Shown here: piece by piece, positions 7,635 through 24,432 of the stretch
How positions within the stretch are numbered: the first letter of the stretch is position 1
Layout of the letters: each line of letters starts with the position of its first letter
Virus record (IMG/VR): IMGVR_UViG_3300019487_000094
Location: 1-24,432 of that record
DNA from: a virus
DNA length: 24,432 bases
Reading direction: 5' to 3' (one strand)
Program-made: the position numbers and the translations under genes
Notes under the pieces: generated by a model
Told to the model about the DNA's origin: nothing
Databases searched by the model: none
What the model saw: the letters and a program-made list of their open reading frames with translations, nothing else

Positions 7635-7925
7635 TTAAGCCCAGAGCTTCGTCGTGTCAATCTCCCCCACGACGAACCCACGATACTCTCGGTTCTTCAC
7701 GTCATAGCGGTTCTCAAAGGATACCTCGGACAGGAAATCATGCCCTTTGAGCAGCACGATATCCAGACCCACACCCGCCCCCCAGGGTTGCCTTTGCGTG
7801 TTCGTGTCCGTATCCACGATCGCAGGGCACGTTACGCACGACGGTGTTTCGCACTGATATCCGGCGAACGCGCTCCCGCCGAAAAACAAGAGTCCAACCA
7901 GAACAAACGCGCTTGTCTTTTTCAT
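7635..7925 (-). CDS. Secreted protein of the lysis region, 96 aa
   Basis: Function unknown. A Sec signal peptide is clear (MKKTSAFVLVGLLFFGGSAFA, cleavage near 21). The mature part has three Cys (CETPSCVTC), which could form disulfides, and a beta-rich end (WGAGVGLDIVLLKGHDFLSEVSFENRYD) reminiscent of an outer-membrane strand pair. ATG 7925 follows AGGGAGGG and overlaps the TGA of the upstream gene. It has no lysozyme or amidase motif, so it is not an obvious endolysin. It may act in the periplasm during lysis. Confidence 0.7.
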   Translation of the reverse strand: MKKTSAFVLVGLLFFGGSAFAGYQCETPSCVTCPAIVDTDTNTQRQPWGAGVGLDIVLLKGHDFLSEVSFENRYDVKNREYRGFVVGEIDTTKLWA

Positions 7926-9708: not shown

Positions 9709-9794
9709 CGAACCATACCTCCTTTTTGCATGGTTTCAACAAGAAGAATCATTAAGAAAATTCCAAATGCGAACCTAAGAGGAAGGTCTTTCAT
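9705..9794 (-). CDS. Membrane microprotein, 29 aa
   Basis: Very short ORF with perfect ATGA overlaps at both ends: its ATG (9794) overlaps the stop of the 221-aa gene and its TGA overlaps the ATG of the 399-aa gene. The product has a single hydrophobic stretch (FAFGIFLMILLVE). The AAGGAGGT of the next gene lies inside it. The exact fit in the overlap chain and the membrane segment support translation. Function unknown. Confidence 0.6.
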   Translation of the reverse strand: MKDLPLRFAFGIFLMILLVETMQKGGMVR

Positions 9795-10456
9795 TGGACA
9801 ACCATGACGCGCCTGGCGCTTCCAGCAGCTTCTTGAACATCAAGATTTTCAACATACCCACTTGCTGTTTTTCCAACACCTGCTATGTCAAGCCCAGCGA
9901 CTACTTTCAAATATCTAAAAGCAGTAGATACGCTCGTTATCGAAATCGTATCTACTAAGGTTGTTCGACCAGAATTGGAATAAATTTGGCAGGTAAAAGT
10001 AGTGCCTGAACGAGATATAGTTAAATAATAGACAGTCGAGTTGGACAGCCCTGTACTTTCATCGTAACTATCGGTTGATATATCATAGATTCCAAGTTGA
10101 TCATTGTCTAAATAAAATAACTGTAAACCAGTTCCATTAACGTTCAAATCCTCCAGATCGCCGCTTACGTTCCCCATTGCCCACACACCCCAAAGACTGT
10201 CAGTGCTATCTGCCGTCTGGGTTACTGTTAGTAAGTGCGAAAAATCGGTAAAGTGAGACGCCCCAAAATCTTTTTGAACATAGAATTTGTCTCCGTTTGT
10301 TTCCATGCTTGTGCCAGTCACTCTGGTGGACGTGACGGTAAGATCGGCACCCTCATCTTGTTCCGTGTAAGTAGTGAAATCTTCCGTTGCAGCAAAAGCC
10401 AATCCAGATAAAATGGAAAAAACAATGAAACTCGAAAAAATCGTTTTTCTAATCAT
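9791..10456 (-). CDS. Secreted lectin-like / jelly-roll protein, 221 aa
   Basis: Clear Sec signal peptide (MIRKTIFSSFIVFSILSGLAFA, cleavage near 22), then a beta-rich, Thr/Ser/Asp-rich domain of about 180 residues. Phrases such as DFTTYTEQDEGADLTVTS, VYYLTISRSGTTFTCQIYS and TASGYVENLDVQEA suggest a concanavalin or LamG-like jelly roll that would bind glycans. ATG 10456 overlaps the TGA of the upstream fibre-like gene. A signal peptide is unexpected for a protein encoded among tail genes. It may be exported to the periplasm or outer surface of the host rather than built into virions. Confidence 0.65.
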   Translation of the reverse strand: MIRKTIFSSFIVFSILSGLAFAATEDFTTYTEQDEGADLTVTSTRVTGTSMETNGDKFYVQKDFGASHFTDFSHLLTVTQTADSTDSLWGVWAMGNVSGDLEDLNVNGTGLQLFYLDNDQLGIYDISTDSYDESTGLSNSTVYYLTISRSGTTFTCQIYSNSGRTTLVDTISITSVSTAFRYLKVVAGLDIAGVGKTASGYVENLDVQEAAGSARRVMVVQ

Positions 10457-12006
10457 TGAGCATCTGCCGTATATTGAACACATAGCGCATAGGTATCGCC
10501 CGTAGTCGGGGTATTCGTAACATCGAAAGCAAGCATTTCACCAGCCACAAGCTGATTGCCAGCGGTGACGGCGGCAAAAGTGGCTGCTCCAGTCGTGGCA
10601 CAGGTTGGATTAGTTCCTGTGATAGTCATGGCGTTTCCGCCCCTGTCCTCTAAGGTGAAAGTGGCTAGAGTTGAGCAGGTCCCTCTACAGTTACAACCAA
10701 CAGCCGTAACCGTTACAGCGTCGTTGTTCATAAAAAACGCATAGTTATCATCTGATGCAGTGAGAGATTCCAGAACAGCGCAAACAGTTCTTTCGTATGC
10801 TAGGACACGTTTTGCGCCACCATAGTAAACAAATTGGTCATCAGTCGTGTCTATTGAAAAATGCCCAACGGATGTAATACTAGGGGCTGTTCCAGGAGAT
10901 ACAGGAATCATCCCATTCACGCTAGTTGCCGTGGCTACTCCGATATTTGGGGTCGTTAAAGTCGGCGATGTTGCTCGGACAGGCGCACCAGAGCCTTGCG
11001 CGGTAGTCCAGACGGGAAGCGCGGAAGCCCCACCGCCCACCAGTATTTCGGTTGTAGCTCCCGCTGCGAGAGTCTGGTGCGCTCCGGTAGCCGTCGTTCC
11101 AGCAGCAATTAAACCGTAAGCGGTCGTGCTTGTTGAGCGACCCGTTCCCCCGTCCGTAACCGGAACATCCGTTCCCCCAGCCATATAAAGAGCATTTCCT
11201 TCGACGGTAAGGTTTCCGGCACTAGCACGGGCTAGAGTCGTATCTGAGGCATGGCCTACTTCCAGAGAACCAACACCAAGAGCTGTAGAGGTCGATGACG
11301 TGATACCTGCGACAGGTAGGCCCGTGGCATTGGTGAGCGTCCCCGCAGACGGTGTCCCGATGTTCGGTGTGGTCAGAACGGCGTTCGTGAAAGCCGGGCC
11401 CGCTCCTACGGCTACGGACTGGTCGAAAGTGAGCGAGAGATTCCCGAAGGTGTAGACCCGATCCCCGTTAAGATTGGCGGTTTGAAAAGTGCCTTTATGT
11501 GAATCGCCGTCGTATAGGGAAATCGACGTGCCGCCGTCCGATGAGCCATCCAAACAAGCTCCTGTGGTGCAGTCTCCCACAGATGTAATATAGCCTGTCC
11601 CTGTCGCGGATATTGTGTCTGTTACATCATTATAAGAGAGACCGGAACCAAGAGTCCAAAATTTCACCGCTCCGTCGGTGTCGTCCCAGCCGATAACCTT
11701 GTTTGCATTTGGATCGGCAAGAGAAGCGCCCGTGCCTCCGTCGGCGAGCGCGACATCGGTATTACCAGAAGCGTAGATTGTTCCCGATGCTGTGTTTGGA
11801 AGAAGGAATTGTATCGTGCTTGACATCGCCTGAGGAAGTATCTCAGCGTAGTTCGTCCCGTCGTCCCCATCTTCATAGAGGCGTAGCTTGCCAACATCGG
11901 TGGTTCCATTCCTCAAATCCAGCCTGTCTGTCTGCTGCGCTGCTTGGACCGGGCCGGATAGAATGAAGGCTATTAAGAAGCCAATATAAGAGACTTTTGA
12001 ACCCAT
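10453..12006 (-). CDS. Fibre-like protein with Sec signal peptide, 517 aa
   Basis: Tail-fibre-like protein. Residues 1-22 form a signal peptide (...IAFILSGPVQA). The body contains typical fibre motifs: LADGGTGAS near 85, VTDGGTGRS near 285, and repeated LTTPNIGTPSAG / LTTPNIGVATA segments. A Cys-rich C-terminal domain (CNCRGTCS and several other Cys) may be a small receptor-binding head. The upstream frame extends to 12063, but ATG 12006 follows AAGGGAGA at good spacing and starts the signal peptide. It overlaps the 173-aa upstream gene by 34 bases and the next gene by ATGA. Export of a fibre-like protein is unusual. Confidence 0.75.
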   Translation of the reverse strand: MGSKVSYIGFLIAFILSGPVQAAQQTDRLDLRNGTTDVGKLRLYEDGDDGTNYAEILPQAMSSTIQFLLPNTASGTIYASGNTDVALADGGTGASLADPNANKVIGWDDTDGAVKFWTLGSGLSYNDVTDTISATGTGYITSVGDCTTGACLDGSSDGGTSISLYDGDSHKGTFQTANLNGDRVYTFGNLSLTFDQSVAVGAGPAFTNAVLTTPNIGTPSAGTLTNATGLPVAGITSSTSTALGVGSLEVGHASDTTLARASAGNLTVEGNALYMAGGTDVPVTDGGTGRSTSTTAYGLIAAGTTATGAHQTLAAGATTEILVGGGASALPVWTTAQGSGAPVRATSPTLTTPNIGVATATSVNGMIPVSPGTAPSITSVGHFSIDTTDDQFVYYGGAKRVLAYERTVCAVLESLTASDDNYAFFMNNDAVTVTAVGCNCRGTCSTLATFTLEDRGGNAMTITGTNPTCATTGAATFAAVTAGNQLVAGEMLAFDVTNTPTTGDTYALCVQYTADAQ

Positions 12007-12494
12007 GAACCGCTCTCCCTTCGCTCTATAGATAAGTCGTTTCCACTCTTTGTAATCCTCCAAGAGCCATTGGTTCCTTGGTCTCCGAAGTAAACAGTAT
12101 CATTGGTGGCTAGACCTAAATTAATCACAGCCCCGGCTGCCGTGGTTGCGCCAGTACCACCTTGATCGATTGACACAGGAATGTTTATCTGTTTCTGCAC
12201 GGGGAGGTTGAACTTGACCATCTCCTTGTTCAGCTCATCCCTGACAGAGCTCCCAACCGTATTCTCGTATCTTTGAGCTCGCTTTTCAAAGGACATGTGT
12301 TCCAGAGATAGTTTTGCCTCAATGCTCTCCGAGACGCTAAGGATGAAACGGCGCAGCTCTGCAATGTCATCCTTAGACACAAAGCGCTGCTCCTTGATAG
12401 CATCTACCCTTTGTGATGCACCGTCATTGCTTGATAGCCTCTCGCGGCGACGCTGCTTCTGAAACTGTTGCATCATCTCTTCTCGGCTAGCCAT
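11973..12494 (-). CDS. Coiled-coil tail fibre attachment protein, 173 aa
   Basis: Structural protein. The N-terminal ~90 residues are charged and helical (a coiled coil with many Gln, Arg and Glu), then comes the fibre motif IDQGGTGATTAAGAVINLGL near 110, and a beta-rich end (TVYFGDQGTNGSWRITKSGN). The GGTGATTA motif is common at joints of phage fibres. ATG 12494 overlaps the previous stop as TAATG. It likely connects a fibre to the tail, but no specific family is recognised. Confidence 0.65.
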   Translation of the reverse strand: MASREEMMQQFQKQRRRERLSSNDGASQRVDAIKEQRFVSKDDIAELRRFILSVSESIEAKLSLEHMSFEKRAQRYENTVGSSVRDELNKEMVKFNLPVQKQINIPVSIDQGGTGATTAAGAVINLGLATNDTVYFGDQGTNGSWRITKSGNDLSIERRESGSWVQKSLILAS

Positions 12495-16054: not shown

Positions 16055-16318
16055 TTATTTTGCGGTCCATCCAGTTGCCCCATCACCGGACTCTTTGACA
16101 TAAATTGTGCTGGACGCACCACCGTCGGTGCGCATGTAAATTGATCCAACACCAGCGGCAACTGCGCCCTCGGGCGAGCCTACGCCCGAGAATATTCTGC
16201 GCGTCTCAGCGTCCCCGGCGACGTTGTCAAAAAGCTTCTTCATCATTCGGTTGAGCTCTGATAGCCCCTCGGCTGTTTTCAGCTTTTCAGGCGTTAGCTC
16301 AACGTAGCCCTCAGCCAT
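16055..16318 (-). CDS. Small tail/virion protein with GSPEG motif, 87 aa
   Basis: The C-terminal part (GVGSPEGAVAAGVGSIYMRTDGGASSTIYVKESG...GW) is a small beta domain seen at the ends of many phage fibre and needle proteins ('GSPEG...GS.Y.RTDGG..TTLYVKE'). The N-terminal ~40 residues are helical. ATG 16318 overlaps the TAA of the 412-aa gene (TAATG). It probably makes part of the tail tip or a fibre trimerisation unit. Exact function unknown. Confidence 0.7.
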   Translation of the reverse strand: MAEGYVELTPEKLKTAEGLSELNRMMKKLFDNVAGDAETRRIFSGVGSPEGAVAAGVGSIYMRTDGGASSTIYVKESGDGATGWTAK

Positions 16319-17556
16319 TAGGTAAGCTGCGCCGGAATCTCTTCGACCCGGATGTATGAATTCATCACGCCTCCAAGAAGCCTCGCGCCTCCGGTGCCAT
16401 TCATGGTCGTGGTGGAACCAGTCGTACCACCAACCCTGACCTTAAAAGTTGTTAGCGAGGTTGTCCCTGCCTTCATGACATGGCTTAATCCAATCTGATG
16501 GACAAATGTCCCGCCTGAGAAGCTGGCCTGCACAGCGCTCAGCGCGCCAGCCGTAGAGTCCTGAAATAACCCCATGATCATCGGCATATTGTCTGTCGAG
16601 TGGTCACCCACAAATCGTATATCTATCCTCAGCTTGTTATTAACGTTGGTTGGCACAAAGTTGAGCGACAAGAATTGATCACCTTCGGTGTTCTGAGGGA
16701 TGGTGTCGTCTGAGACCATCGCCGTGGTGCCGGTTGCAACGGCTCCTGTCTGATACTCCACGAAGTTACGGACACCCACGTCCAATATGTTAGACACACC
16801 GTATGTATCAAGCTCGCCAGAACCGGTGCCGTTCATGCGGAACCATCCAAGATAACGATACACGGTCCCTGAAACGGTGGCATAACGCTTTGTGTTGTTT
16901 GCGGCTGTGATAGAGACGGCGTAATCCGCGTGTGTCGGAGCGGTCGTTGTCATCTTAATGTTGCCGCTAGCGTCAATAATGACATACCCTGTTGTGTTGG
17001 TCGCTTGCTGAGATACGCCACCGGCCCAGTTACCAGAGGTAGTCAATGTAAGAGTGGTGTTTGATGTCTTAGAAACATTTGAAGCGTTAATCACAACACT
17101 TCCTGGGCCCACGGTCATTGTAGTGGTGCTTGCCTGCATGACGTTCATCTCTGATCTAAATTCTGGGGCAACGTTAACTGCGGCCCACTCAGGAGCGGTA
17201 GCCCCAGAGTTCATGCGAAGAACTTGAAGGGCTGTCCCCTTAGCTAACCTTGCCCATGCAGAGGATGAACTTGCATAAATAACATCACCTGCCGCCTGTG
17301 AAGCGATTGTGAGCCCTGAGTTCAGAGGTATTTTCGGACCGTCATTGGTGGTCCCTGAGTGATCATGCCCGGTAGAGGCGTGCAAGGAGTCATTAAAATA
17401 CGTGTGAAGCAGGTCTAGCTGGGCTTCCAGGTCAGCGTCTGTGAGAACCTCCGTGCCCCAGTCTTTAGAACGAGCACTCAGCGAAGGCCACGCCGCCCAA
17501 GCGACAGAGCCTATAAGCAATGCAGAGATTGTTAGAATAGCGAGCTTTCTTTTCAT
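16318..17556 (-). CDS. Fibre/needle-like protein with Sec signal peptide, 412 aa
   Basis: Signal peptide at residues 1-21 (MKRKLAILTISALLIGSVAWA). The mature protein starts with a helical stretch and HDHSGTTNDGPKI, a motif common in phage fibres. Then comes AAGDVIYASSSSAWARLAKG, another fibre motif, followed by long beta-rich Thr/Ser/Asn segments. It sits right after the gp10-like hub gene, where P22 carries its tail needle. ATG 17556 has AAGGAGG at 4-nt spacing. The signal peptide is unusual for a virion protein. Confidence 0.75.
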   Translation of the reverse strand: MKRKLAILTISALLIGSVAWAAWPSLSARSKDWGTEVLTDADLEAQLDLLHTYFNDSLHASTGHDHSGTTNDGPKIPLNSGLTIASQAAGDVIYASSSSAWARLAKGTALQVLRMNSGATAPEWAAVNVAPEFRSEMNVMQASTTTMTVGPGSVVINASNVSKTSNTTLTLTTSGNWAGGVSQQATNTTGYVIIDASGNIKMTTTAPTHADYAVSITAANNTKRYATVSGTVYRYLGWFRMNGTGSGELDTYGVSNILDVGVRNFVEYQTGAVATGTTAMVSDDTIPQNTEGDQFLSLNFVPTNVNNKLRIDIRFVGDHSTDNMPMIMGLFQDSTAGALSAVQASFSGGTFVHQIGLSHVMKAGTTSLTTFKVRVGGTTGSTTTMNGTGGARLLGGVMNSYIRVEEIPAQLT

Positions 17557-17565
17557 CACTCCTCC

Positions 17566-19146
17566 TTATGCCTCTTCCAAAGCCAAAGCCACGATCTTTA
17601 TCTTCTTTATGCGTGGACGTGTTGACGTTCCGCTGTTTGAAATGGTGAACTGAACACGTCTTCCAACTGCACCGTTAGGGAACGGATACACCACGGTGCG
17701 GTCCTGTGGGGTCGATGTTATCGACGATGTGTTCAAGATGAAGGTTGTGTTAAGCAAAGCTCCGGCAGCTGTAAGGTCTATGGTCTTTGTTCCTGAATGA
17801 AGACCGCGGTCCATGTCCCACAGCACGCTCACGGAGCCTGTCGTGCCGTGGAACGTCACGATCATTTTAATAAGCTTAAGGCGCACATCGTCTATGCCAA
17901 ACTCCCCGCCACTTGCAATGGCGAAGTCGCGTGAGGAAAAGACCTTCGTCTTGTAGACAGCCTGGGTGGCTTGGCCCTCATCGGAATTGTCATCCGTCTC
18001 TAGTTCGTAGCACTTGTCCTTCTGAGATGAGGCGGCATAAATATTGTTAAACCCAAACCTAAGGAGCGCAGGGTATCCAAAGTTGTCGGATAGCGCGGTA
18101 TTCACCGGCCGGTTCATCCACCGGCCTAGCGTGGCATCATAAATTCTCATCTTGTTAGGATAGGACACAGCGCTGTCAATATCGGAGTAGATGAGATAAT
18201 ACCGCCTGTTGCGATAGATGCCGTAAACACGCTTGGAAAGATCGATCTTGTCGATAAAAACATCCCTGTTGAAGTATGTCAACTCCTTGGGTGAGTTTAC
18301 TCCATCATAAACGAAGATGCCCTTCGTCGGCCAATCGGACATGAAATAGACTCCCTCATCACCAAGTGCGATAGAGTACGGCGCACAGCAATTGCGAAAC
18401 GGGTTTCCAAGAGGCCTGAAGGCCGTGTTCGGAAAGTTATAGATGGCATACCCGCCTCTATTTGTGAAAACCAGCGTCTCATTACCGCTTGGGAAGTTCG
18501 GCTGACAGCCTCTCGTGTCCTCAGGCAGGTCGATGCTAGAGGCATCGTTAGAAAGACTCCAAGCGTCGGATGCGACCCAGTTGCCCACCCCGGCGCGGCA
18601 GATGTAAACCCTGCGTGGAAAGTCGCTTGAGCCTTCAGCAATCAAGCGAGTCTTATGCCCATAAATTCGAGCACAGTTCGAGGCTGGAACAGAGGATGGC
18701 GTAGCGATGGCGACCCCGACAGTCTTGCGCTTTAGGCCATCAGAAACATTGGTCATCCACAGGCCCTCACCAGCCGAAACCCCGTGAGTCAACACACCAG
18801 ACGTGAAGGCGGCAGCATCGTCCTGCGTAAGAACAGCCCCGACGAATTTTACCAGGTCGCCCTCGATGACTGCGTATAACTCCGTGCCGCCTGAGTCCTT
18901 ATGTTGAATAAGAAGGTCTGGCTGTAAGGTGTAACCGACTCCTCCGTCTCCTACCTCGTTGAAGCCACGGGCGCGTATCATGCCTCCAAGGGAGAGGGCG
19001 TCCCAGTTGTCAACCTGGCGACCCTCCTCGGTCTTCATGGCCTGGTCCTCGGAGATGGTGTTCTCCCCTCCGGCGAAGCTTAAGAGCTCTAACGCCAGCT
19101 CTACATGTTCCTGCTTATCCAACACGCGAGCAGTTTGTAGTCCCAT
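17566..19146 (-). CDS. P22 gp10-like tail hub / DNA stabilisation protein, 526 aa
   Basis: Probable tail hub that plugs the portal and holds the packaged DNA. Length fits the gp10 family (about 470-530). The sequence has repeated blade-like phrases with Trp, Tyr and Gly: GNETLVFTNRGGYAIYNFPN, GDEGVYFMSDWPTKGIFVYD, RRYYLIYSDID, LLRFGFNNIYAAS. These suggest a beta-propeller. It follows the adaptor gene exactly as gp10 follows gp4 in P22. The start ATG at 19146 overlaps the upstream TGA (TGATG); GTG 19149 is an alternative. C-terminal beta-sandwich region from about 400. Confidence 0.75.
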   Translation of the reverse strand: MGLQTARVLDKQEHVELALELLSFAGGENTISEDQAMKTEEGRQVDNWDALSLGGMIRARGFNEVGDGGVGYTLQPDLLIQHKDSGGTELYAVIEGDLVKFVGAVLTQDDAAAFTSGVLTHGVSAGEGLWMTNVSDGLKRKTVGVAIATPSSVPASNCARIYGHKTRLIAEGSSDFPRRVYICRAGVGNWVASDAWSLSNDASSIDLPEDTRGCQPNFPSGNETLVFTNRGGYAIYNFPNTAFRPLGNPFRNCCAPYSIALGDEGVYFMSDWPTKGIFVYDGVNSPKELTYFNRDVFIDKIDLSKRVYGIYRNRRYYLIYSDIDSAVSYPNKMRIYDATLGRWMNRPVNTALSDNFGYPALLRFGFNNIYAASSQKDKCYELETDDNSDEGQATQAVYKTKVFSSRDFAIASGGEFGIDDVRLKLIKMIVTFHGTTGSVSVLWDMDRGLHSGTKTIDLTAAGALLNTTFILNTSSITSTPQDRTVVYPFPNGAVGRRVQFTISNSGTSTRPRIKKIKIVALALEEA

Positions 19147-19826
19147 CACATCAGGCTATAATCATAGCCTCCTCCAATAAGATCGTCTGCTCCCATGACA
19201 AGATTAACGTCTGGCACGGCGTACTGCTTGCTCATGTAAAGCCGCTCTGCGTATGCCTTGGCATCTCGGACGATGGTCAAGAACCGTTGGTAGTAGGTGT
19301 TGGAAATTTCGTTCTTCCCAACCTGCCTTAAAAGCTCAGAGGCGGCGTAGTAGACCGGCCCCTCGCGGTACTCCTCAGGAAGAATTCCAGTGTCTGAGTC
19401 ATCGCTAAGCTCAGTGTCTGGTTTCTTGAAGTAATACAGCGCGTAGGCAGCGCCCGTCACTGAGCCAAGAAGCTTGATGTAACGAGCCCCGCTCTCTTCT
19501 GAGATGTAGTAAACAGGGATCGCCCCACCGTAGTTGTAGAACCTCTCATAATCCTCTATTGAGATTTCGCGCTGACGAGTAATGACATAGTTGCTGACGA
19601 TAAGAACGTGTATCTGCAGGCAGTCTGAAGGCAGGGCTATCTGGTTAGATGATACGGTTCCCGTGGACTTTGCCCTGACAAGCATCGCCTCCCTGCAAAA
19701 CTGCATCTCACCCCTGTTCAGCTCCTTTTTGCGGCTGGCCAGAGGGAACTGGTCCGTCGTGCCTGTGTTGTCATCACCGAGCAGTGAACTTAACTTGGAT
19801 TGCATGTTGAGAAACGTGTAGCTCAT
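19146..19826 (-). CDS. Tail adaptor protein (P22 gp4-like), 226 aa
   Basis: Head-tail adaptor that binds the portal ring. The pattern SYTFLNMQSKLSSLLGDDN, ... RKKELNRGEMQFCREA, ... LPSDCLQIHVLIV, ... EYREGPVYYAASELLRQ and a C-terminal helical arm is the usual layout of phage adaptor proteins. The frame extends to 19874, but ATG 19826, overlapping the glycosyltransferase stop as ATGA, is the better start. It is followed by the hub gene. Together they are the strongest evidence for a P22-type tail. Confidence 0.8.
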   Translation of the reverse strand: MSYTFLNMQSKLSSLLGDDNTGTTDQFPLASRKKELNRGEMQFCREAMLVRAKSTGTVSSNQIALPSDCLQIHVLIVSNYVITRQREISIEDYERFYNYGGAIPVYYISEESGARYIKLLGSVTGAAYALYYFKKPDTELSDDSDTGILPEEYREGPVYYAASELLRQVGKNEISNTYYQRFLTIVRDAKAYAERLYMSKQYAVPDVNLVMGADDLIGGGYDYSLM

Positions 19827-20965
19827 GCTGTTACCAGCTCTCCCTTCATAGCCCTTGAGAACGCCTCCGGCCACATGTGAGACTTGGTGTTGATGTTGTG
19901 GTTCGTAAACACCTCGTTCCTCGCCGCGCGGGCAAGGCGCTCACGGCGGTACTTGTCAATTACTAGCTCCTCGATGGCCTGTACCCATGAACGGGTGTCG
20001 CTAGCAGCAAGCAGGCCTGTTGATCCGTTTGAGATAACAGAAGAGTACGGCACCATGTCGCTTGCCACCGTAGCGGCCGACAACACCGAATACTCAAGCC
20101 ACTTGATCGCTGACTTGTTCCTGTTAAAACGGTTGTCAACCAAAGGACACAGGCCAATATCCAGGTTTAAGCTGAAAATCTTGTAGGGATAAGCAACGTG
20201 CGGAACCCAGGCGTGGTATTCCATCTGATTCTGTGGGGCATCCTTAAAAAGACCCATGAAACGCAGGTCGCCGGAGTAGACGAACTTTAAGTTCTTGTGG
20301 CGGCGCAAAACATCAATGATGGCCGGTCTGACCAAGTATAGGTCCTCGTAGTGTGATGCCCCGCCCTGCCAACCCATGCGAACTTCACTCTTGACAAACT
20401 CCTGTCCACGTGGATAGAACTCAGGGTCAATAAAGTTAGGGAGCACGGCAACATTTGGGTTGATGGTAAGGAACTCCTCCCGCAGCTCTGGTGTGGTGCA
20501 GGTCACAAGGTCTGCCTTCTTGAAGTTCAGCCTGAACATGTCACGGAAATGGATGTTTGCGTCGATGTTAAAAATCTTCTTGCCGGTTGGCGAGACCATC
20601 TCCTCATGCCACAGCTTCTCAGTTGTCCCATCCTCCCACTGGAAGTTCCACGGCTCAATGCCGACGTATTGATAATATGGGTTTAGAGGGCTCGTGTTAA
20701 ACGGGTCGTCATCATAATCGGTAACGACCACCTTCCCGATCTTCCGACACATCTTGATGAACTCAAACCAGGCCTTGGTAGATGGTCTTGCAAAGAAGAT
20801 TACATCCGACATCACGGCAAGGTTTGGTGCGTTCTTCTCTCCAAGCTCGCTCTCCTTAATGAAATAAACCTCGGCGTGGCCATGCTCTAAAGCCTTAAGA
20901 AGTGGCAGGCGTACACGGTAGTAGTTTGTCGCAAGCTGATCTCGCTCGATGGCCATAATCCTCAT
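19823..20965 (-). CDS. GT4-type glycosyltransferase, 380 aa
   Basis: Predicted GT-B fold glycosyltransferase that moves a sugar from a nucleotide-sugar to an acceptor, probably in surface glycan modification. The N-terminal domain reads RIMAIERDQLATNYYRVRLPL. The C-terminal donor domain contains GWQGG at 198-202, the stretch CPLVDNRFNRNKSAIKWLEYS at about 273-293 with K284, S285 and the key Glu 291, and GSTGLLA at about 314-320. Those match GT4 proteins. ATG 20965 overlaps the upstream TGA and has GGAG 9 nt away. It is the last gene of the glyco block, next to the tail adaptor. Confidence 0.85.
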   Translation of the reverse strand: MRIMAIERDQLATNYYRVRLPLLKALEHGHAEVYFIKESELGEKNAPNLAVMSDVIFFARPSTKAWFEFIKMCRKIGKVVVTDYDDDPFNTSPLNPYYQYVGIEPWNFQWEDGTTEKLWHEEMVSPTGKKIFNIDANIHFRDMFRLNFKKADLVTCTTPELREEFLTINPNVAVLPNFIDPEFYPRGQEFVKSEVRMGWQGGASHYEDLYLVRPAIIDVLRRHKNLKFVYSGDLRFMGLFKDAPQNQMEYHAWVPHVAYPYKIFSLNLDIGLCPLVDNRFNRNKSAIKWLEYSVLSAATVASDMVPYSSVISNGSTGLLAASDTRSWVQAIEELVIDKYRRERLARAARNEVFTNHNINTKSHMWPEAFSRAMKGELVTA

Positions 20966-21177
20966 ATGCGTTTCTCCAGCCAGAAGTATAGCCAGTCAGG
21001 AAGCATGTCCATAAGCGTCCTAAGTCTGAAGCCCGCAGGAAAGCAGAAAGAGCCATTGTTGACCAAAACCATACCTAGAATAATAAATGTGGTCACGCGC
21101 AGCTTGTACCTCATGTCCCTGCCTATAGATAGCAAAAGCAGGTCAAAGTTGAATAGCTCAATAGCCACTATCTGCAT
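20962..21177 (-). CDS. Small membrane protein of the glyco block, 71 aa
   Basis: Function unknown. A hydrophobic stretch (VTTFIILGMVLVNNGSF, about residues 28-44) and an aromatic C-terminal end (DMLPDWLYFWLEKRI) suggest membrane association. ATG 21177 follows a strong GAGGAGG and overlaps the kinase gene's end by 10 bases; its stop overlaps the glycosyltransferase start. It may tether the block's enzymes or act on a lipid-linked glycan at the inner membrane; that is inference. Confidence 0.6.
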   Translation of the reverse strand: MQIVAIELFNFDLLLLSIGRDMRYKLRVTTFIILGMVLVNNGSFCFPAGFRLRTLMDMLPDWLYFWLEKRI

Positions 21178-22208
21178 ACGACGGCCTCCTCAAGCATATA
21201 TTCGATCTGCTTAATGACACGTCTCATGGAATATTCATCATCAAAACCCGTAGAGGGCTTGTTTGGCATTCCAAGACAGCTTGGAGGCGACTTCTCAAGA
21301 AGCTCAAATTTTCCACCCCTAAAAATTTGAGCTTTTAGAGTAATGGCCCAGCCAAAGTCTATGAGCTTGATGGTCCTGTCAAGAACCATGAGGTTGTCGA
21401 GCTTGATATCGCGGTGCTGTATGTCGTGCGCTTGGAGCTCATCTAGAATACGATTAAGCTGCGCCCTCCAATCATCGGGAATGTTGTCCAAGGTAAGGTG
21501 CTCACCGCAGTTCTCAATGGCGATGGCATCTGGATTATATTTCTCTCCCTGCGGGATGAGCTTCGGAAAATGCCTGCTATTAAGCCTTGACAGAATATCC
21601 TCCTCATTGGCAAGCAGAGGGTACTCGTGATAGGAGACTTGAGTCTTTATGACCCCAAAATCCGTCTTCTTGATTACGGACGTGGCTCCTTTCCAGTAGG
21701 CGTTGAAGCGCCCGACGCTCTTGTCCTTCGGTTCCACCCAGCCGATGCTGGAGGCCTTCAGGGAATCCAAGAGCTCGTCCACTGTTACTGGCCCCAGGTA
21801 CTTTCTGTACTCTTGAGCGATATCATTCTTGTGGTGCACGGCGTGATAAGCAAGCGCCGCCGTGTGGCAAGCATAGTCTGGGGTGAAAAAACCACGGTCG
21901 TTCCACTCCCTAGACCTTAGGATGGCGCGTTGGAAGCTCTCGGGGTAGTAGTCGTCCCCCACGGAACGCACGTCTGCATAGAGGCAGCTTTCACCTATAG
22001 GGATGCGAGTCCTAACACGCGGAACCTTATGAACAAGCCTAGCCTCTGGAAACAGCTCGAAAAAATGCTCAAAGTCATAAACAAGCAGGTCAAGGTCAGA
22101 GTGTTCGCCTAGCTGCGCATCGTTCGGGAGGTTATCAAAGTTCCTTAGCACAACGTACTGAAAGTTAACGTCATGCATGTAGCTGAAAAACTGCCTCAAG
22201 TTGCGCAT
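21168..22208 (-). CDS. Nucleotidyltransferase-like / kinase fusion protein, 346 aa
   Basis: Two domains. Residues about 15-85 resemble a nucleotidyltransferase fold with the catalytic-type motif GEHSDLDLLVYD (D38, D40) and a possible third acidic residue at D79. Residues about 165-346 are a protein-kinase-like fold with all expected catalytic residues: K188 (VIKT), HRDIKLDN at 265-272 and DFG at 284-286. The kinase half is like the sugar/LPS kinases (WaaP and related) that phosphorylate core heptose or Kdo. ATG 22208 has AAGGAG at good spacing. The pair of domains in one chain, among glycan genes, suggests sugar or lipid A core modification. Confidence 0.8.
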   Translation of the reverse strand: MRNLRQFFSYMHDVNFQYVVLRNFDNLPNDAQLGEHSDLDLLVYDFEHFFELFPEARLVHKVPRVRTRIPIGESCLYADVRSVGDDYYPESFQRAILRSREWNDRGFFTPDYACHTAALAYHAVHHKNDIAQEYRKYLGPVTVDELLDSLKASSIGWVEPKDKSVGRFNAYWKGATSVIKKTDFGVIKTQVSYHEYPLLANEEDILSRLNSRHFPKLIPQGEKYNPDAIAIENCGEHLTLDNIPDDWRAQLNRILDELQAHDIQHRDIKLDNLMVLDRTIKLIDFGWAITLKAQIFRGGKFELLEKSPPSCLGMPNKPSTGFDDEYSMRRVIKQIEYMLEEAVVCR

Positions 22209-22216
22209 CTGTCTCC

Positions 22217-22744
22217 TTAGTGTAGCCTGACTGCCACGATGCTTGCTTCAGTGCAGGTCGTAGAACCTGCTGAAGCGACTGTATCGATGCCGCCAAAGAT
22301 CTGGATGATGTCATCCGTGTTGATAGTCGTGTATAGCACAGTAGGTAAATGAATATTACCAGCCACACCGCTAAGAGCAGTGATTATTCCAGTTCCAAAT
22401 GCTGTTGAACTGCCTGCCAGGTCCGCAGCCGTGTTGTTCGTGCGTCTGAGCTTTGTCGTGATTGTCCTGTTTAAGGCGTAAGTAGCCCCGACATTCTCCC
22501 AGTTGGCATGTGCCATAATGAGGTACGTACCAGGCTTCGTGATGGTGATGGATGGGTCCGTCGTCCCAAAATCGATGGGTGCCTGCGTGTTCGTGATCGT
22601 ATATACCGTGCCATCTGAATAAACCGTTATGGTGTCTTCCGAGCTGAATGGTGATACCCCGCAGTTCGTGACAGACATGCCAGCTTCGCAGGCCATGGTG
22701 GTCGTTAGGAGCAGGCCGAATATGAATGCTAACAGCCGCTTCAT
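22217..22744 (-). CDS. Secreted C1q/TNF-like jelly-roll protein, 175 aa
   Basis: Signal peptide at residues 1-21 (MKRLLAFIFGLLLTTTMACEA). The mature protein is beta-rich and ends in a pattern typical of the C1q/TNF-like knob of phage fibres: TKPGTYLIMAHANWENVGAT, ... TVLYTTINTDDIIQIFGG, ... STTCTEASIVAVRL. Two Cys are close to each end of the mature chain and could form a disulfide. It follows a second secreted protein in the glyco block. It may form trimers on the cell or virion surface. Confidence 0.75.
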   Translation of the reverse strand: MKRLLAFIFGLLLTTTMACEAGMSVTNCGVSPFSSEDTITVYSDGTVYTITNTQAPIDFGTTDPSITITKPGTYLIMAHANWENVGATYALNRTITTKLRRTNNTAADLAGSSTAFGTGIITALSGVAGNIHLPTVLYTTINTDDIIQIFGGIDTVASAGSTTCTEASIVAVRLH

Positions 22745-22748
22745 CTTA

Positions 22749-23120
22749 TTAATTCTCCTCTACGACGTAGAAGAAGGAGGCTTTATCACCGCTGACAGTC
22801 GCGTCCACCTTAAATATGGCCGCATCGAACTTAACAGGCGGGTCAGAGTGACCCTCAATGACGACGCAGCCACCTGGGGAGAGGATAACCCCTTGCTGTG
22901 CCCCTGCCGCTGCTACCGGGTTCTGCGCCACAGCAATCTTACCAGTGTTGCCTGTGTCACCGCAGATGATAATGCTGGTAACGTGCTTCGAGGAGGACAG
23001 GATAGCCAGAGCCGTCCCAGATGTCGCGACGGTCTTGGTCCCCTGGCCGAACCTGATTCCAGCGTGCGCTGGCGCGCTGATACAGCTGAACGAGATTATG
23101 AGTACGATTAGCCCTCTCAC
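22749..23120 (-). CDS. Secreted small protein of the glyco block, 123 aa
   Basis: Signal peptide at 1-20 (MRGLIVLIISFSCISAPAHA). The mature part is beta-rich (TKTVATSGTALAILSSS, ICGDTGNTGKIAVAQN, GVILSPGGCVVIEGHSD) and ends with KASFFYVVEEN; it looks like a small beta-sandwich head. Start is GTG 23120, overlapping the WbqC stop with AGGAGG just upstream. A decoration or capping role on virions or host surface is possible but unproven. Confidence 0.7.
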   Translation of the reverse strand: MRGLIVLIISFSCISAPAHAGIRFGQGTKTVATSGTALAILSSSKHVTSIIICGDTGNTGKIAVAQNPVAAAGAQQGVILSPGGCVVIEGHSDPPVKFDAAIFKVDATVSGDKASFFYVVEEN

Positions 23121-23668
23121 CTTGCCTCCTGTTTAACCTCTTTAGATTTCCACAGTTGCTTTCGTGTACCGTCAATTCCAAACTGCTCAAACATCTCTAA
23201 GATGTTGAGCCTTTCGTTCTCATGGGTAGCGTAAACAACGTCTATGCCTGAGCTCCTAATCAGCTCCTCATCTAGGTACTTGTCCTTCGCGGACGGGTGT
23301 GTCACATAGTGAGTCGCCCCGTAGTGGTTCAAGTTATCCACCAGCCTCTGGGTCTTGGTAGAGTCCGTCACTACGTCCTTGACAAGCCTTGTGTTGATCC
23401 CAAGAACCCTTATCACCCAAAGGATGAACTCTACGTTCAGCTGAACAAGGTTCTCCCCATTCACGTACTGCTTCGAGTAAAGCGGGGCAAGCCCGGAATG
23501 AACCGGCATGGTTACCCATCGCTGCTTGCCTTGTAGAAAATAACGGTTCTGGTAGCCGTTCTTCTCGAATTGACACTGCTCTAGGATAATGAACACGTCG
23601 CACATCGACATCTTGTAGAAGAAGCCAAAGTGCGGCACGAAATTCGGTTGATGAATTCCTACTCGCAC
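23117..23668 (-). CDS. WbqC-like protein, 183 aa
   Basis: Matches the WbqC family (PF08889), whose members occur in O-antigen and other polysaccharide loci and may work in amino-sugar modification. Recognised features: MRVGIHQPNFVPHFGFFYKM at the start with the HQP motif, CDVFIILEQCQFEKNGYQNR, and the long alpha/beta core. Its exact reaction is not established. GTG 23668 overlaps the methyltransferase end by 10 bases. Seen beside a methyltransferase, a glycosyltransferase and a sugar-kinase-like gene, it supports a glycan-modification cassette. Confidence 0.85.
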   Translation of the reverse strand: MRVGIHQPNFVPHFGFFYKMSMCDVFIILEQCQFEKNGYQNRYFLQGKQRWVTMPVHSGLAPLYSKQYVNGENLVQLNVEFILWVIRVLGINTRLVKDVVTDSTKTQRLVDNLNHYGATHYVTHPSAKDKYLDEELIRSSGIDVVYATHENERLNILEMFEQFGIDGTRKQLWKSKEVKQEAR

Positions 23669-24150
23669 TGTTTTATCTCATCCTCCTCATGCACCAGAAC
23701 CTCCCAAACATAAGCCCCGTTCTCCTCATGATCGATAACGCGTGGTCCAAAAAATAAATCCACCACCTGCTTAACCGCGCGGTGTGCCGGGTTTCCGTAG
23801 TCATACCCGGTTATTGCCCCGCCGGGGCGCACCTTCGGAGACCATACGCCGATATCCCAAAAGACGCTTCGCTCGTCATATGCCGCGTCGATAAAGACAA
23901 GGTCAACCGATTTGTCCTCCACCTTGAATGATGCGGAAACGGAAGGCTCAAGAATAGCTATCACTCTGGGGTCATGCGTGTGTGCAAGAAAAGAAGCGTC
24001 TTTGTCAGAGTCCACGGCGTAGTATCTCTCAATAGACGGACAAGACGCGAGCAGCGAGAGCATCGTCTCCCCATCTCGGACCCCGACCTCTACTATGCGT
24101 CTATAGCGTCTCTGGTTGACCAGGCCTGCCAGCACCTCATACCTTTTCAT
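23659..24150 (-). CDS. Class I SAM-dependent methyltransferase, 163 aa
   Basis: Rossmann-fold methyltransferase that transfers a methyl group from S-adenosylmethionine, probably to a sugar. Motifs seen: VEVGVRDGET (motif I, about 20-29), acidic AVDSDK at about 45-50, DLVFIDAAYDE at 83-93, and GGAITGYDYGNPAHRAV at 110-126. Length is compact, near the minimal catalytic domain. ATG 24150 is preferred; TTG 24159 is in frame and gives 166 residues, but leaves the GAGGAGG too close. Neighbours make a glycan O-methyltransferase likely. Confidence 0.8.
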   Translation of the reverse strand: MKRYEVLAGLVNQRRYRRIVEVGVRDGETMLSLLASCPSIERYYAVDSDKDASFLAHTHDPRVIAILEPSVSASFKVEDKSVDLVFIDAAYDERSVFWDIGVWSPKVRPGGAITGYDYGNPAHRAVKQVVDLFFGPRVIDHEENGAYVWEVLVHEEDEIKQCE

Positions 24151-24432
24151 GTAGACCAAAAGCCTCCTCTAATTTTTCAGTATTCAGCCTCCAGGGGTGG
24201 TAATACCAGAACGTGTGCCTTGGGTCAAACCGCTCTAACTCCAACGACCTCCAAATCCTGTCATGGTTGTTGCCGATAAGCTGGATGCTGTTGGCCTCGC
24301 AGATGGTCTTGGTTTCCTTGTTGACCTCGTTAAACGGCGGGATAAACTTGTCCGCTCCAAGCAAGGCGCAGCTGGTGAGTATGGACATCTCGTTAGCGTC
24401 TCGTGAGTACTGAGAGTGGTCCCCGTGGAATA
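24137..24432 (-). CDS. C-terminal part of an unknown gene of the glyco block (5' end beyond window)
   Basis: The frame is open to the window edge with no start needed inside the window (an internal ATG exists at 24388). About 97 residues are visible. Noticeable motifs are HGDHSQY near the cut edge and LIGNNHDRIW in the middle. His/Asp pairs such as GD and GNxHD occur in metallophosphoesterases, but the order and spacing here do not fit that family well, so I leave function open. Its last 14 bases overlap the methyltransferase start, so the genes belong to one operon. Confidence 0.6.
   Translation of the reverse strand, partial: FHGDHSQYSRDANEMSILTSCALLGADKFIPPFNEVNKETKTICEANSIQLIGNNHDRIWRSLELERFDPRHTFWYYHPWRLNTEKLEEAFGLHEKV

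Follow-up and report, generated by a model that had tools for sequence, protein, structure and literature searches.

We analysed the whole of a viral DNA of 24,432 bases, the IMG/VR record IMGVR_UViG_3300019487_000094 (hereafter, "the window"). Near its right end, genes for glycan-modifying enzymes run into the genes for a head-tail adaptor and a tail nozzle. It forms the right portion of a longer glycan-synthesis module that is truncated by the end of the record. As far as sequences can tell, the module has a conserved gene order, translational coupling, conserved catalytic residues, and a history of co-divergence with virion proteins. Its place in the virion operon is constant across a clade of uncultured podophage-like viruses, and we consider it marginally better than an even bet that it builds a short, modified amino-sugar glycan, most likely for virion proteins.

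Gene order and inheritance of the module

The left part of the window holds replication genes (for a DnaB-like helicase, a replication initiator, a Cas4-like nuclease, a NinG-like protein, and an HNH protein). The virion operon lies on the minus strand, as do all genes of the block (coordinates are those of the whole window). Read from right to left, the adaptor, the nozzle, and tail or fibre genes close the operon. In the direction of transcription, the block consists of a deacetylase fragment, a methyltransferase, WbqC, two beta-rich proteins, a nucleotidyltransferase-kinase, an open reading frame (ORF) of 71 amino acids (aa), a glycosyltransferase of the GT4 type, the adaptor, and the nozzle. 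With the deacetylase fragment and the nozzle included, neighbouring genes overlap at seven of the nine junctions, by 4 to about 20 nucleotides (nt), varying with the start codon; at the other two junctions, the genes are 4 nt (22749/22744) and 8 nt (22217/22208) apart. For example, an ATGA is common to the stop codon of GT4 (19825-19823) and the start codon of the adaptor (19826-19824), which makes a junction of -4. The adaptor (19146..19829) is of the SU10 type (PF24175, E = 1.4e-12; 49 bits versus a cut-off of 27) and, going by the relatives, is positioned between the head genes and the nozzle; homologues set its true start, probably, at the ATG at 19826. The gene downstream (17566..19149) is 48-69% identical to the post-adaptor gene in relatives L007-L017, and we call it nozzle-type from its position. 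A sequence-only reading of the window had named most of these genes and had suggested that the cassette is translationally linked to virion genes and expressed late. All of the genes it named are present, in a mostly overlapping chain beside the adaptor, although it overlooked the deacetylase fragment. The linkage is borne out, and because the genes are linked in this way, late co-expression follows naturally.

To find relatives, we searched with an alignment of five glycosyltransferase sequences and kept the best 80 of 127 confirmed viral loci. Among these best 80, 11 (L007-L017) had the order WbqC, nucleotidyltransferase-kinase, GT4, adaptor, nozzle. Adding searches with the adaptor and with the kinase protein gave 22 contigs, besides the window, with that order; each of the three enzyme genes is kept in all 22. 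The adaptor search is a fair test because it does not select for the cassette, and in all 15 contigs found with the adaptor alone, WbqC, nucleotidyltransferase-kinase, and GT4 lay beside it. In every contig that extends to the capsid genes (20 of 20), a GT2 gene (Pfam Glycos_transf_2), preceded by two small conserved genes, lies between the major capsid protein (MCP) and WbqC. The full order in the relatives is MCP, two small genes, GT2, a variable interior, WbqC, nucleotidyltransferase-kinase, GT4, adaptor, and nozzle. Because relatives are so arranged, the window's cassette should continue to the right with the rest of a NodB deacetylase, GT2, and then the capsid gene. Near-duplicates (L008/L009/L012, L109/L110, and L096/L114) were counted as separate contigs, so the independent lineages number about 18; L120, which matched only the kinase family, was excluded from the clade. 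Single-protein scans of viral contigs (with the adaptor or the nucleotidyltransferase-kinase) were unproductive, as was tblastn against phages with the kinase protein, the window's adaptor, or the adaptor of L002 (which found only its own record). Megablast gave no DNA match for the window among 50,697 phage records. The kinase alignment matched one GTDB contig, L085 (JAIFWG010000003.1), from a metagenome-assembled genome (MAG) labelled Candidatus Parcubacteria "viral-cat". This is probably a phage contig of the clade in a bacterial bin, that is, a binning artefact and not evidence about the host.

The interior of the module varies slowly. Across the 17 loci in which both GT2 and WbqC were seen, it held NodB (nine loci), PIG-L (three), or a dehydrogenase/hexapeptide-acyltransferase (eight); every interior had at least one of these, and 12 of the 17 had a deacetylase. 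Inside the module, NodB never occurred together with PIG-L or with the dehydrogenase/acyltransferase (L007 has an extra hexapeptide-type match past the nozzle). The methyltransferases differ between interiors as well. A tree built from the MCP, adaptor, and nozzle of 16 contigs shows only three switches of interior type, two of them inside groups that are uniform apart from this (L013; L017 with L119), which weakens the idea of a freely reshuffled serotype locus. In the same 16 contigs, mean pairwise identity was 0.615 for MCP, 0.584 for the nozzle, and 0.481 for the adaptor, and among the cassette proteins it was 0.565 for the kinase protein, 0.535 for GT4, 0.510 for GT2, and 0.465 for WbqC. 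The averaged cassette and virion identities were strongly correlated (Mantel r = 0.883; 0 of 2,000 permutations were as high). We used one locus per contig for this test, as well as for the interior-type tree and for the solubility check described below; 16 of 19 loci had all of the families, and the window itself is outside the set. The co-divergence speaks for vertical inheritance and not for a common target, because shared ancestry alone suffices. To judge by these comparisons, the module is a conserved frame whose interior is replaced slowly, without free shuffling. The sequence-only reading had seen in the block an odd embedding of genes that are usually separate morons. Instead, the cassette is fixed and vertically inherited within a head-neck operon, and unrelated podophages have other glycan cassettes in that slot.

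For example, Podoviridae sp. ctQWt234 (MW202801), a complete circular podovirus that is unrelated to the clade, has radical SAM, GT2, PhyH, methyltransferase, NodB, and GT4 genes from the MCP region to the adaptor, an unannotated PF24175 gene that the GT4 gene overlaps. It shares with the clade the slot, the NodB, methyltransferase, and GT2 genes, and a terminal GT4 that overlaps the adaptor. However, radical SAM and PhyH replace the WbqC and nucleotidyltransferase-kinase of the clade module, and the GT4 is only 25-26% identical. PF24175 was present in 11 of the 50 records with a relative of GT4 (MW202801 is among the 50, and the iterated adaptor profile missed it). Using iterated profiles, we found 12 adaptor-bearing loci outside the clade: in seven (L021, L022, L032, L037, L038, L039, and L051), GT4 is directly next to the adaptor; in two (L019 and L027), it is located between the MCP and the adaptor; and in three (L028, L076, and L077), it is kilobases away. 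In L020, the stretch from MCP to GT4 is occupied by genes for a GT2, a GT4-type transferase, a methyltransferase, and a TOD1/MUCI70-type transferase. Since the non-clade loci were found through GT4, they tell us that the arrangement recurs and not how frequent it is.

Enzymes of the module and a parallel with bacillithiol synthesis

WbqC (23117..23668; PF08889, E = 6.2e-25; 88.8 bits versus a cut-off of 21.3) is predicted to have a HUP fold, and its closest solved fold is predicted to be that of BshC. When the predicted model (pLDDT, a per-residue confidence score, of 92) was compared to solved structures with VIA-align, BshC (4wbd) came first, with Z = 10.8 and a root-mean-square deviation of 3.5 over 175 aligned residues; it was followed by glutamyl- and tyrosyl-tRNA synthetases and phosphopantetheine adenylyltransferase, at Z = 9.3 and below. 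Foldseek gave no PDB match for WbqC at E = 0.001 or better. Because the similarity is one of fold only, we would say that WbqC "works like" BshC, not that it "is" BshC.

In the synthesis of bacillithiol, BshA joins GlcNAc to malate, BshB deacetylates the product, and BshC is a putative cysteine ligase that acts on the amine (excerpt of PMC4360819); an N-methyltransferase modifies bacillithiol in some bacteria (excerpt of PMC12719100). Part of the phage enzyme set resembles this three-step logic, by analogy, with a GT4-type transferase, a de-N-acetylase, and the BshC-fold WbqC. The phage module differs in lacking a BshC by sequence, in having extra enzymes, in using NodB and not PIG-L (in the window and in most of the deacetylase-bearing relatives), and in its product, which is probably bound to a polymer or a protein. 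In Vibrio phages, WbqC directly follows a gene annotated as a "BshB1" deacetylase. Among 12 plasmid neighbourhoods that we picked by hand, with no control set, from 41 records with a WbqC match, PIG-L was within 3 kb of WbqC in four and a sugar aminotransferase in six (either one in nine); three loci (H27, H34, and H40) had neither. In other genomes of the phylum group of the MAG that holds L085 (192 searched), there were four WbqC loci, one of them with PIG-L directly upstream. On a plasmid of Streptomyces sp. NBC_00239 (L131, 356-6496), PIG-L, WbqC, GT4, and an aminoacyl-tRNA-ligase-related gene form an overlapping chain, and the two genes ahead of the chain carry annotations as dCTP/deoxycytidine deaminases. 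We regard the capping of an amino sugar's free amine by WbqC as a lead that has several supports, all of them weak. A literature search for WbqC and phage gave no paper on a phage WbqC by title, and pairing WbqC with amino sugars or with glycine turned up nothing of use.

The GT-B/GT4-like glycosyltransferase (19823..20965) is the last gene of the module. It matches PHROG 7162 "glycosyltransferase" (E = 2.1e-34), and Pfam's GT4-type domains match under their cut-offs (E = 5e-4 to 7e-3). The classical catalytic motif of GT4 enzymes is EX7E; the second Glu (E291) is invariant, and the first is Asn in the window. The GT4 profile finds 14 solved sequences, including 5d00, which is N-acetyl-alpha-D-glucosaminyl L-malate synthase (BshA); we take 2jjm and 3mbo to be BshA and 3c48 to be MshA.

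The deacetylase fragment (24137..24430) runs off the right end of the record. It appears to be the C-terminal half of a polysaccharide deacetylase of the NodB/CE4-like kind, with about 40-48% identity to the NodB-like proteins that relatives have in the equivalent place. NodB/CE4 deacetylases have Asp-Asp and His-x3-His metal/catalytic motifs. In the alignment of the NodB-like relatives, an N-terminal Asp-Asp (D6-D7) and an SHGLxH motif are near-invariant; the window has the C-terminal half only. Pfam's Polysacc_deac_1 scored 32.1 bits in L002 (over the cut-off) and 16 bits in L007 (under it), and a search of PDB sequences with NodB gave no match. The next gene (23659..24159) encodes a class I SAM (S-adenosylmethionine) methyltransferase (Methyltransf_24; PF13578, E = 7.2e-13) and overlaps WbqC by 10 nt. 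It was not recovered by profiles of the relatives' methyltransferases, and we class it as a gene of the variable interior.

From the alignment and from structure matches, the protein encoded at 21168..22208 joins a nucleotidyltransferase-like domain to a compact domain that resembles protein kinases. In an alignment of 12 sequences, GxHSDLD and a later Asp are invariant in the nucleotidyltransferase half, and K188, E202, D267, N272, and D284-F-G are invariant in the kinase half. The kinase domain PF00069 scored 30.1 bits (E = 4.1e-7), just below the cut-off of 31.7, and the kinase half (model pLDDT 77) aligns with RIO2 and protein kinases; searching PDB sequences with the nucleotidyltransferase domain gave no match. 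WbdD of E. coli O9a, which caps O-antigen by the action of a kinase and a methyltransferase (excerpt of PMC3482155), likewise combines a eukaryotic-like sugar-phosphorylating kinase with methylation. In the phage module, however, the kinase shares its chain with a nucleotidyltransferase domain, and the methyltransferases are separate.

Candidate targets of the glycan

We propose that soluble enzymes, made late alongside the capsid and neck proteins, would draw on host nucleotide sugars and that GT2 and GT4 would assemble a short glycan. The deacetylase (NodB in the window, PIG-L in some relatives) would free the amine of an N-acetylhexosamine, and WbqC, as a BshC-like HUP enzyme, would re-cap it with an acyl or aminoacyl group. 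The methyltransferases and the nucleotidyltransferase-kinase would attach methyl and phospho groups. The acceptor would most likely be one or more head-neck virion proteins, and progeny would therefore leave the cell decorated. On its own, the virion as target seems to us about an even call. A more elaborate version, with a hard-wired pathway in the head-neck operon for glycosylating the particle, interiors that can be exchanged (NodB, PIG-L, or dehydrogenase/acyltransferase) to give alternative glycans, and BshC-like amine capping by WbqC, is on balance improbable. There is precedent for the target: phage glycosyltransferases are reported to glycosylate the capsid and tail tube of mycobacteriophages (excerpts of PMC12363180 and PMC12619734), and those of Che8, Corndog, and Myrna to act on the phages' own particle proteins (Freeman 2023, as cited in those excerpts). 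The clade module differs in being multi-gene (deacetylase, WbqC, nucleotidyltransferase-kinase, and methyltransferases), adaptor-coupled, and podophage-like, and its action on the particle is inferred. We found no report in the literature of glycosyltransferase genes beside structural genes.

The sequence-only reading had offered two targets, the virion itself and the lipopolysaccharide (LPS) or capsule of the host. In the second case, the module would alter the LPS core, the capsule, or another glycan at the cytoplasmic face late in infection, which would keep progeny from being trapped on debris or would block superinfection. We think this unlikely, although no other alternative fares as well. 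WbqC, GT2, methyltransferases, and acyltransferases do occur together in bacterial polysaccharide clusters, the kinase and methyltransferase are reminiscent of O-antigen capping by WbdD (excerpt of PMC3482155), and two signal-peptide-bearing proteins lie within the block. On the other hand, none of 19 phage records had a WecA-type (PF00953) or WbaP-type (PF02397) gene (the search did not extend to flippases, polymerases, or ligases), and none of the 19 had a GtrA-type gene (PF04138; the control was detected in 8 of 14 genomes). A Gtr pathway or one initiated by WecA or WbaP was rejected on these grounds. In the MAG that holds L085 (G059), the WecA- or WbaP-type matches are on contigs other than the phage contig. 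None of the cassette enzymes showed a clear transmembrane segment, by a rule that is crude because one capsid protein outscored every cassette enzyme. Also, the cassette shares its pattern of divergence with the capsid and neck genes, and the slot next to the adaptor is found again in unrelated phages. The Gtr serotype-conversion cassettes of temperate phages are a phage-encoded glycan change, as the clade module would be; the module differs in having no GtrA-type flippase and in its site within the virion operon. Of the two targets, the virion fits better, because the 19 phage records have no WecA-, WbaP-, or GtrA-type enzyme and the enzymes look soluble; this evidence is indirect.

It is very unlikely that the module instead decorates phage DNA by glycosylating and modifying hypermodified bases. 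Virus-encoded DNA glycosylation has been described (Pyle 2024, cited in an excerpt of PMC12619734), WbqC lies near a terminase in a Vibrio phage, and in Arthrobacter phage DanielleIgnace it accompanies glycosyltransferases, a ParB-like gene, and a methyltransferase. But the module is in the late virion operon, away from the replication genes, and a search of 19 phage records gave no thymidylate-synthase-like gene (PF00303; the control was detected in 9 of 14), which led us to reject modification based on that enzyme; a search of 21 gave no C5-DNA methylase (PF00145). TET/JBP (PF12851) was found in 0 of 22 records, and its control was silent as well. The DanielleIgnace locus (L121, 2199-9018) comprises the WbqC-like gene 95, two glycosyltransferases, a hydrolase, the ParB-like gene, and the methyltransferase; we found nothing in the literature that links hypermodification with ParB.

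Slightly less probable still is a soluble small molecule, such as a bacillithiol-like thiol made by GT4, the deacetylase, and WbqC. The WbqC fold is nearest to BshC, solved BshA is among the 14 sequences hit by the GT4 profile, and three relatives have PIG-L. Yet GT2, the nucleotidyltransferase-kinase, and several methyltransferases fall outside the pathway as the excerpts describe it, no BshC was found by sequence, most interiors have NodB or no deacetylase, and such a product gives no reason for the linkage to neck genes. Finally, although the record ends inside the block, a contig misjoin or a recently acquired moron has a negligible chance of being right and was rejected, because 22 other contigs share the order and all 15 contigs of the adaptor-only search carry the cassette; a like cassette is in a complete circular genome, and none of the relatives found lacks the block.

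Several points weigh against virion glycosylation and against amine capping by WbqC. The glycan, its acceptor, and the enzyme activities are predictions from genes; linkage to virion genes tells the timing rather than the target; and the host may supply lipid-linked acceptors. Genome ends are absent in most of the records. The Z lead of BshC over the next HUP match is only 1.5 (10.8 versus 9.3), and the WbqC sequence profile did not find BshC in PDB sequences up to E = 10. The plasmid neighbour count (9 of 12) stands without a control, the best solved matches of GT4 are bacterial surface-glycan enzymes as well as BshA and MshA, and 5 of the 17 fully seen interiors (L014, L015, L107, L110, and L115) have no deacetylase.

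Accompanying proteins and wider implications

Two genes of the block encode beta-rich proteins with signal-peptide-like N-termini (we called signal peptides by a home-made rule or by eye). The smaller (22749..23120) overlaps WbqC at a GTGA and had no homologue among the relatives' loci. The other (22217..22744) is of virion type, with 50% identity over 138 aa to L007:6523-7005 and 47% to L085:7567-7998; these homologues are at the equivalent place and lack the hydrophobic N-terminus. The description of the pair as secreted depends on the home-made rule. Outside the block, just after the nozzle, the protein at 16318-17559 has a signal-peptide-like stretch placed before the point (AWPS...) where its homologues start. 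Of 18 distinct sequences, only those of the window and L011 (11667-12506) have the prefix; the 16 others start with Met there. Both 22217-22744 and 16318-17559 look like virion-type beta proteins with export signals prefixed. We found nothing in the literature on signal peptides of virion proteins. Further signal-peptide-like N-termini are on beta-rich or tail-region proteins of the window (7638-7925, 9794-10483, and 10456-12063) and in other phages (L009:3481-3876, L105:10131-10709, and L002:23964-25346).

The 71-aa ORF (20962..21177), which had been read as a small membrane protein, does have one hydrophobic stretch, a weak one (a Kyte-Doolittle 19-mer of 1.68), but it is confined to the window and matches nothing in any relative. 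By eye, HNH-endonuclease-like genes are inserted in the capsid-to-adaptor region of several relatives (L010:2563-3132, L119:4380-5096, L106:1794-2354, L110:6657-7100, and L014:9118-9504). At the window's left end, an ORF at 3-734 that is cut by the record's end finishes in a long series of AAR/AAW/DAR repeats, although the rest of its protein is ordinary.

Virion glycosylation is already known in other phages, so far in few lineages and with one or few glycosyltransferases; the module would be a multi-gene, adaptor-coupled form of it. If virion proteins are indeed the acceptors, then a clade-stable, neck-coupled pathway would make particle glycans a core trait of these phages and not an add-on. 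The BshC-like fold and the deacetylase or aminotransferase neighbours make WbqC testable, with the free amine of a hexosamine as the proposed substrate and an N-capped sugar as the proposed product; if this proved true, it would assign a chemistry to a functionally obscure family that is common in bacterial surface-glycan clusters. In viral metagenomes, cassettes such as this one are easily read as auxiliary genes for the host surface, so the question of the target matters for annotation.

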